The notes under the pieces: generated by a model
What the model was told of the DNA's origin: nothing
Databases searched by the model: none
Seen by the model: only the letters and a program-made list of their open reading frames with translations
DNA from: Halomarina litorea
GTDB taxonomy: Archaea; Halobacteriota; Halobacteria; Halobacteriales; Haloarculaceae
Assembly (NCBI RefSeq): GCF_024227715.1
Contig: NZ_CP100448.1
Location: 1-64,000, forward strand
Length of the DNA stretch: 64,000 bases
Direction: 5' to 3'
Shown here: positions 45,924 through 55,430 of the stretch, in pieces
Position numbering within the stretch: position 1 is the first letter of the stretch
How the letters are laid out: every line of letters starts with the position of its first letter
Made by a program: the position numbers and the translations under genes

Positions 45924-45971
45924 AAGCATCAACAGCAAAGTCTAACAAGCCGGCGGGTGAATCGGGTGGTG

Positions 45972-46361
45972 ATGCCCACCGTTGAATACCTGAACTACGA
46001 AGTACTGGACGACCACGGCTGGTCGCTCGACGACGACGACCTCTTCGACGAGGCGGAGGGCGCTGGCCTCGACGAGGAGGACTACGGCACGCTCGACGTC
46101 AACGAGGGCGAGTACATCCTCGAGGCCGCCGAGGCACAGGGCTACGACTGGCCCTTCTCCTGCCGTGCCGGCGCGTGTGCGAACTGCGCCGCCATCGTCA
46201 CGGAGGGCGACATCGAGATGGACATGCAGCAGATCCTCTCCGACGAGGAGGTGGAGGACAAGAACGTCCGCCTGACCTGCATCGGCAGCCCGGCGGCCGA
46301 CACGGTCCAGATCGTCTACAACGCGAAGCACCTGGACTACCTCCAGAACCGCGTCATCTAG
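45972..46361 (+). CDS. fer: Haloarchaeal 2Fe-2S ferredoxin
   Basis: 129 residues. Cluster ligands Cys64, Cys69, Cys72 (CRAGACANC) and Cys103 (LTCIGSP). The acidic N-terminal extension ([33 protein letters not shown]) is the halophilic domain seen in Halobacterium and Haloarcula ferredoxins. It serves as electron acceptor of pyruvate and 2-oxoglutarate:ferredoxin oxidoreductases. ATG 45972 starts at [10 protein letters not shown], as in the known proteins. Its 3' flank contains the tandem hairpin array, the first hairpin 19 bp after the stop. Confidence 0.95.
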
Positions 46362-46380
46362 CGCGTCCTATTATCCACGA

Positions 46381-46601
46381 CCGGGGTCGCGAAGCGACCC
46401 CGGCAGTGTAAAAGCTCGAGCATCGCCGGACTGCACCGCAGTCCGGCTAGCAGTCAGAGCGCGCGGCGCTCTGACAGCATCACCAGAACGGCGAAGCCGT
46501 TCTGGTTAGTAGCCAGAAATCGGGAGATTTCTGGCGACAAAAGGATTCCTCGCTCGCTTCGCGCTCTCTCGTGGCGAACCGCGCTCACGTCGTTCGCGCG
46601 G
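46381..46601. repeat. Tandem array of five perfect and one imperfect hairpin
   Basis: Hairpins: 46381-46403 (ccggggtcgc-gaa-arm), 46425-46447 (gccggactgc-acc-arm), 46453-46475 (gtcagagcgc-gcg-arm), 46483-46505 (ccagaacggc-gaa-arm), each 10+3+10; 46513-46534 (ccagaaatc-ggga-arm, 9+4+9); 46579-46601 (ccgcgctcac-gtc-gttcgcgcgg, two mismatches). Spacers after the first are 5-7 nt. The arm sequences differ while the architecture is constant. Located after the ferredoxin gene; the first could terminate that transcript, but one terminator would not need six stems. Confidence 0.9.
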
Positions 46602-46645
46602 ATGCTGGCAACCGTTCTTTCAAGCGGTTCAGTGCTGAATCAGCT

Positions 46646-46668
46646 GTTAGACAGAGAGCGTGTCTATC
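46646..46668. repeat. GTTAGAC palindrome, copy 4
   Basis: gttagac (46646-46652), 9-nt centre, gtctatc (46662-46668); preceded by cagct as in copies 1 and 2. It lies 72 bp beyond the stop of the minus-strand regulator gene, which carries copy 5 at the other end. Confidence 0.6.
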
Positions 46669-54987: not shown

Positions 54988-55430
54988 ATGCGAACCACGG
55001 TCAACCTCTCCGAGGCGGACCTCGCCGCCTTCGACGCGGTCTGGCAGGCCGAAGGAGTCGAGTCCCGGTCGCGGCCGTCCGCGAGGCCGTCCGGGAGTAC
55101 ACGGAGGCACACACCCGACCGGAGGAACGCGAGGGCGAGGTGGCGGCGGTGCTCGCCTTCGACTACGAACACCACGCGGTCATCCGCGACCTCCACGACG
55201 TCCAACACGACTTCCAGGACGTTCGAAAATCGCAAAGCGATTTTCGAGCCAGCCGGATTTCTCCGAAATCCGGTGACGTCATCCAGTCGGCGAGCCACAC
55301 CCACCAGGGCGAGTGGTGTCTGGAGACGGTGTTCTGTCGCGGGTCGGTCGCCCACGTGCGGGAACTCGTCTACGCCCTGCGCGACTTCGACGCGGTGGGC
55401 CGGGTGAAGTGCTCGTTCTCGCGGGAGAGT
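54988..55430 (+). pseudogene. nikR: nikR-like nickel regulator, frameshifted, with hairpin insertion
   Basis: The start MRTTVNLSEADLAAFDAVWQ is a NikR/CopG ribbon-helix-helix domain. At about 55073 the frame shifts: the next frame reads AVREAVREYTEAHTRPEEREGEV, then LAFDYEHHAVIRDLHDVQHDFQDV and SHTHQGEWCLETVFCRG, which contains the His/Cys nickel ligands. Between FQDV and SHTHQ stand 18 extra residues encoded by two hairpins (55223-55273). The second frame has no stop where NikR should end (about 55430) and runs on into ilvE out of frame until 56039. So regulation of the divergent NicO gene is probably lost. Confidence 0.7.
55223..55273. repeat. Hairpin pair inserted in nikR
   Basis: tcgaaaatcgc-aaa-arm (55223-55247, 11+3+11), spacer gccag, ccggatttc-tcc-gaaatccgg (55253-55273, 9+3+9). 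Stem/loop sizes and the 5-nt spacer equal those of the intergenic arrays. The A/T-containing arms contrast with the surrounding GC-rich coding sequence. Confidence 0.8.

Follow-up and report, generated by a model that had tools for sequence, protein, structure and literature searches.

The row of hairpins that follows a ferredoxin gene in this haloarchaeal DNA is a composite, in which an older repeat with a single hairpin (repeat A) has received two tandem insertions of a double-hairpin element (DHE), here called B and C. DHEs are copied, insert precisely, carry a target-like tetranucleotide and keep their hairpins paired while the letters change. The account that we consider probable is that repeat A was joined by two tandem mobile elements, moved by an activity that reads structure, whose arms have since been rewritten by template switching.

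The preliminary description had placed six hairpins in a row after the ferredoxin gene, and this was confirmed, with five perfect hairpins and one that contains two mismatches (Table 1). Most stems have the size given there, although two are slightly longer (11+3+11 in hairpin 4 and 10+4+10 in hairpin 5). The spacing, described as a constant 5-7 nt, holds for hairpins 2 to 5 only, where hairpins 2-3, 3-4 and 4-5 are separated by 5-6 nt; a gap of 21 nt separates hairpin 1 from hairpin 2, and one of 43 nt separates hairpin 5 from the sixth.

Table 1. Features of the hairpin array and of the in-gene element in the window, with positions counted from the first nucleotide of the window.
Feature	Position	Strand	Structure	Remarks
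2Fe-2S ferredoxin-like gene	45972..46361	+	ORF 45957..46361	upstream of array
Repeat A, left part	46367..46419	+	CTTTTAT-type outer arm, hairpin 1, GTAAAAG outer arm, GCTCGA	recipient of insertions
Hairpin 1	46381-46403		10+3+10, perfect	part of repeat A
DHE B, 57 nt	46421..46477	+	CATC, hairpin 2, TAGCA, hairpin 3, AG	model E 1.2e-16
Hairpin 2	46425-46447		10+3+10, perfect	in element B
Hairpin 3	46453-46475		10+3+10, perfect	in element B
DHE C, 60 nt	46478..46537	+	CATC, hairpin 4, TAGTA, hairpin 5, GA	model E 6.2e-11
Hairpin 4	46482-46506		11+3+11, perfect	in element C
Hairpin 5	46512-46535		10+4+10, perfect	in element C
Repeat A, right part	46538..46662	+	CAAAAGGATTCC, GC-rich tail with imperfect sixth hairpin, ...CTGTTAGACAGAGAGCGTG	
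Sixth hairpin	near 46579-46601		two mismatches (by eye)	in GC-rich tail of repeat A
DHE in NikR-like gene, 57 nt, in-frame	55222..55278	-	hairpins 55223-55247 and 55253-55273	

The window, the whole 64-kb stretch that was analysed, contains 11 perfect stems with 9 or more bp and a loop of 3-5 nt, against a mean of 2.0 and a maximum of 4 in 20 Markov-shuffled windows, and five of them are packed into 155 nt. Pairs and single hairpins were counted in 400 kb sampled from the same chromosome, while genome-wide figures come from model searches. In this sample, the number of single hairpins with 8 or more bp is near random (89, with a shuffled mean of ~67 and a range of 45-80), whereas close pairs are in excess, with three found against a total of two over ten shuffled sets. 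The non-random unit is therefore the pair, and the comparison of paired-hairpin density with shuffled sequence that had been proposed at the outset came out above random in this sample.

Repeat A follows the scheme CTTTTATCCACG-hairpin 1-GTAAAAGCTCGA...CAAAAGGATTC, with 20-nt arms that are 80% complementary, and has many solitary copies in congeners; its right part is common to loci L029, L065 and L230. The ferredoxin gene has orthologues in all seven congeners (88-91% identical). At this locus, the stop codon is followed by repeat A without B or C in G001 and G007, by an A-like hairpin in G003 and G004, and by neither in G002, G005 and G006, so that orthologous loci with and without the array, a comparison that the preliminary description had called for, do exist. 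In copies of repeat A found by their flanks, the distance from GCTCGA to CAAAAGG is 1 nt, 58-60 nt or 114-118 nt, which corresponds to zero, one (C) or two (B+C) pair units. Where C is present alone it sits between GCTSGA and CAAAAGG, and B is missing from these A+C copies as well as from empty copies of A. Among congeners, C is found inside repeat A or elsewhere, and the complete A+B+C block occurs in G001, G006 and G007. A DNA search also showed that the genome contains the five-hairpin block once more, at a place downstream of a nucleotidyltransferase-like gene; this other copy is 93% identical and has several loops changed. The idea of one array of equal hairpins made de novo thus gives way to that of two 57-60-nt elements inserted into an older repeat, as the orthologous empty sites show.

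Repeat A often lies a few bases after stop codons (46367-46662 in the window; copies L046, L047, L054-L056, L063, L065 and L067-L069), and the arms of its hairpin differ among species at one and the same locus.

The DHE consists of a CRTC tag and two stems of ~10 bp with 3-nt loops, joined by a TGGC or TAGC linker, over ~57 nt. Copies of the CATC sub-type, to which the array copies belong, read CATC-(hairpin)-TAGCA-(hairpin)-GA/AG, and those of the CGTC sub-type read CGTC-(RCCAGAACGC-loop-GCGTTCTGGY)-TGGC-(TCACGAGAGC-loop-GCTCTCGTGA)-A-CGTC. Arms that had at first appeared unrelated in fact share a vocabulary, such as RCC(A/G)GAANNC. Among 54 copies of the CGTC type, 45 carry CGTC and five carry CATC as the left tag (together 50 of 54); on the right, the tetranucleotide is CGTC in 27 copies and varies in the others. 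The empty orthologue L210 of locus 507403 also has the CGTT that stands to the right of the element. Together with the near-constant left and variable right tetranucleotide, this speaks for a tag borne by the element and a target that resembles CGTC. A plain 4-bp target-site duplication is disfavoured, although duplication and tag are not separable for every copy.

DHEs also interrupt genes. At least 12 lie within genes, including those for Nth, a Hef-like helicase, TrpA, NikR, Usp and others, and they are usually 57 nt long. Six in-gene sites were compared with empty orthologues. Relative to congeners, NikR, endonuclease III, a TrpD-type transferase and a DUF460 protein (Pfam names) show a net gain of 57 nt, and the Hef-like helicase one of 51 nt; an SDR gene likewise differs by 51 nt from that of G003. 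The NikR element is flanked by GACG at both ends (55218-55221 and 55275-55278), and aligned NikR homologues from relatives are without the insert, with CAGGACGTCATC as the joined site in close relatives. All in-gene copies that were read share one orientation and one frame, and encode a hydrophilic peptide with the typical end N-x-N-x-x-R-S-G-D, in which the second position is typically Q (N-Q-N-x-x-R-S-G-D). Two in-gene copies, at 507403 and 2929336, show apparent frame shifts.

Several features of the interrupted genes can be added. In the NikR-like gene, one base is apparently missing near 55065-55090, upstream of the insertion, and the resulting frame shift would reflect a pseudogene or a sequencing error. 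The interrupted genes include DNA-repair genes, namely those for endonuclease III and the Hef-like helicase (G000:C1:1005845, L134; G000:C1:251159, L145), as has been reported for bacterial intragenic REPs. Two pairs ~170 bp apart apparently lie in one thioesterase-like gene (G000:C1:2929164 and 2929336; L144 and L139), and the second seems to be frame-shifting.

A covariance model of the pair was built from 13 sequences, of which B is one and C is not, and contains 20 base pairs. It matches ~30 places in the genome of origin (G000), and 49 of the 59 genomes drawn from relatives have matches. In a phylum-wide draw, matches were found in 20 of the 24 genomes of the order, compared with two of 124 outside it. 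These two, G083:C71:4313 and one in G100, are single matches in two genomes of one genus, and may possibly be due to transfer or chance. Exact-pattern searches add DHEs in Halorubrum, Haladaptatus, Halogranum, Halopenitus, Haloferax, Halobium and Halorientalis. For a viral or plasmid source, neither a pattern search of IMG/VR nor blastn against phage and plasmid collections gave a match.

Two more families of repeated hairpin pairs, each with its own conserved flanks, were seen in the same genome (G000:C1:168014, 1722600 and 2521541; and 611659, 659654 and 3067448). In G004 (L294, L317, L318, L320 and L321) and G003 (L325), a CGTC-type element lies inside a larger multi-copy repeat, where its hairpin 2 has unrepaired one-sided mismatches.

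IS200/IS605-type HUH enzymes read hairpins and insert beside a tetranucleotide, and they make no target-site duplication. In the proposed mechanism, a donor DHE would be exposed as single-stranded hairpins, and a tetranucleotide-specific, structure-reading activity, HUH/IS200-IS605-like by analogy and acting in trans, would insert it beside a CGTC/GACG target. Its arms would subsequently be required only to pair, allowing the sequence to drift, and template switching between them in replication would homogenise the arms and flip the loop, so that pairing would be kept despite changing letters. The HUH step is an analogy only, because searches for the Y1 transposase (PF01797) gave no match in G000, G001, G003 or G007, all of which are rich in DHEs. 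By eye, DHE number and the presence of a Y1 transposase showed no correlation. Moreover, the matching tetranucleotides at both DHE ends could equal a true 4-bp target-site duplication, which would count against an IS200/IS605-like mover.

A related explanation, which seems rather unlikely, is that the pairs are terminal-only relics of IS200/IS605 elements, like the PATEs of Haloquadratum, with TnpA acting in trans. PATEs have near-terminal palindromes, 52-bp forms and strain-specific insertions (PMC3119063). Three pairs of the genome adjoin tnpB genes (2712122, 2711539 and 2708189), of which the genome has about a dozen, and pairs are found upstream of tnpA in G026 and G045. However, ~27 of the 30 pairs lie away from tnpB, and Y1 TnpA is missing from four DHE-rich genomes of the genus. 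The IS605 copies examined in relatives have pairs near tnpA or tnpB alongside other terminal hairpins, which are separate and of other sequence. Furthermore, a DHE is made of two hairpins with a 4-5-nt linker over ~57 nt, whereas a 52-bp PATE relic has one palindrome copy.

CATC-type pairs lie between similar flanks (..AAGCCC / CACCCTC..) in G000, G006 and G030 (G000:C1:2712122, L106; L032, L051 and L297). The G000 copy lies just after tnpB, suggesting old carriage by an IS1341-type element.

In the model alignment, 98.8% of cells are paired and 17 of the 20 pairs show two-sided changes, with none of 500 shuffles as high; this alignment was chosen partly by structure, and structure searches favour intact hairpins. 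Sets of copies defined by their flanks avoid that bias. Their stems were scored copy by copy, and pair counts on MAFFT alignments of repeat A and C were set aside because the gaps are not structure-aware. Of the hairpins in flank-defined sets, all 12 of B are perfect, with differing arms, as are 12 of 18 of C, and most of 22 copies of A pair, including one with a symmetric one-base shortening. The TrpA element, which occupies the same site in G000, G001 and G007, has two two-sided stem changes and no one-sided change. At the DUF460 site, elements lie at one position in three species, and the entirely different hairpin-2 arms of G003 represent either a repeat insertion or a rewritten hairpin. 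The original suggestion that arms are constrained by pairing and not by sequence is thus upheld, both by the model alignment and by copies located from their flanks.

Strong covariation, along with the position of repeat A right after stop codons and its pairing in most copies, could also indicate a conserved structured RNA or a regulatory 3'-end element (terminator or stabiliser) under selection for RNA pairing. We regard this as improbable for the array as a whole. An Rfam search of the array gave no match up to E = 1, and DHEs lie in unrelated reading frames and are absent at orthologous sites, which makes a common gene-regulatory role unlikely. A single conserved RNA gene is ruled out, as orthologous loci lack B and C and the pair is also found within coding sequence. 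For repeat A, a function as a 3'-end or terminator element could be envisaged, and a structured 3'-end RNA role may apply to this repeat alone.

The loops provide a second record of change within the hairpins. All-purine or all-pyrimidine loops make up 49 of 72 in hairpin 1 and 53 of 68 in hairpin 2, against means of 19 and 17 and maxima of 33 and 31 in 5000 shuffles. The dominant loops form reverse-complement pairs, GGA/TCC and GAA/TTC, and records from Halorubrum and Halopenitus have AAA and TTT loops in near-identical flanks with hairpin-1 stems unchanged. Template switching between inverted repeats in replication has arm homogenisation and spacer inversion as known outcomes (PMC8604942, PMC8794818). 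As far as sequence can tell, the loop classes point to such homogenisation and loop inversion; selection for stable GNA mini-hairpins on either strand is a possible source of the homopurine and homopyrimidine loops. Arm homogenisation appears to be neither fast nor complete, given that only 12 of 18 hairpins of C are perfect and that G004 copies with a common flank have unrepaired mismatches.

Perfect arms, hypervariable loops and loop classes that fit template switching (PMC8794818) would also agree with hairpins arising de novo at each place by templated fold-back, with no mobile unit. As an origin, this is very unlikely. The copies have their tag and linker in common, also in unrelated flanks, as well as their arm vocabulary and a constant length of insertion, and the recurrence of the A+B+C block at 93% identity requires copying, which leaves fold-back as a means of upkeep. 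The fold-back process first suggested accordingly remains a good account of how arms are maintained, but not of where they came from, in view of the mobile unit and its empty sites. Finally, chance inverted repeats in GC-rich DNA, with which the near-random number of single hairpins agrees, have a negligible probability given the local cluster and the pair excess, and are refuted by the covariation and the precise empty sites.

In a wider sense, DHEs may tentatively be viewed as a class of archaeal selfish elements defined by architecture and not by sequence, which preserve their tag, two paired stems and linker, whereas template switching after insertion rewrites the arms and inverts the loops. 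Such a class would also seed in-frame peptide loops across haloarchaea, including in Nth and the Hef-like helicase. Tagged palindromes are hereby extended to archaea, with mobility evident from precise empty sites. The order-wide spread with in-frame insertions and the loop-inversion signature are the strongest surprises. DHEs offer a natural series for the open question of how small palindromes keep perfect pairing despite changing sequence, and same-site copies (TrpA, the DUF460 gene and repeat A), together with the GGA/TCC and GAA/TTC loops, make the template-switch account directly testable. Conserved proteins can acquire new loops through in-frame insertions in one orientation, and comparing haloarchaea with and without Y1 transposases provides a genetic way to search for the mover of CGTC REP-like elements.

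Among known systems, REP/BIME/REPIN sequences with RAYT are GTAG-tagged hairpins in paired units, with presumed HUH transposition and an associated RAYT gene. The REP-like nature proposed at the outset fits the DHE, but its tag is CRTC, and neither its own genome nor several related ones gave a match to PF01797. Double-hairpin elements of fungal mitochondria, with two hairpins, variable stems and apparent mobility, are alike by description, but organellar.

Searches of an open-access library gave no paper that describes double-hairpin elements inserted in frame in archaea. The closest archaeal description is that of the Haloquadratum PATEs, which are also haloarchaeal, palindrome-bearing and transposase-free, with strain-specific insertions. 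Their palindromes lie near the termini and are related to IS605 ends, and the accessible part of PMC3119063 describes neither a fixed two-hairpin unit nor in-frame gene insertion. Rickettsia palindromic elements (PMC10969869) resemble DHEs, by description, as in-frame palindromic insertions in unrelated proteins with a recurrent peptide. However, they are ~150 bp long in that account, whereas the DHE has ~57 nt and two separate hairpins, and keeps pairing rather than sequence.

A stronger likeness is to CGTC-tagged REPs, which include Rickettsia RPE-4/RPE-6 and Neisseria dRS3 (Di Nocera et al. 2013, PMC3733652). In both these and DHEs, a short hairpin adjoins an unpaired tag of CGTC or a variant of it, and both show frequent pairs, in-gene copies and heterogeneous stems (PMC3733652). 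The tag of the REPs is CGTC (or TGTC/CCTC), which the DHE shares, with CATC in the array copies. No dedicated transposase was found for the REPs (PMC3733652); the DHE has no Y1 match in its own genome, and some copies lie beside tnpB or tnpA. Other traits differ. CGTC REPs have stems of 8-9 bp and loops of 4-5 nt, compared with mostly 10-11 bp and mostly 3 nt in DHEs. Their stems open with two AT pairs and a CCA tail is present, whereas hairpin 1 of the DHE starts with RCC and is followed by TGGC/TAGC. They mostly form head-head dimers with tags at the outer ends, while the DHE has one tag per two-hairpin unit and a tetranucleotide in direct orientation at its far end. Regarding hosts, only bacteria are named in PMC3733652, in contrast to the haloarchaeal DHE; the earlier view that no such archaeal family had been described agrees with this, though a related kind was already known in bacteria. 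On stem, loop, AT pairs, CCA tail and head-head arrangement, the DHE therefore falls outside the four published CGTC REP families, although it works alike. The closest known kind is the bacterial CGTC-tagged REP, and the DHE is its archaeal variant.
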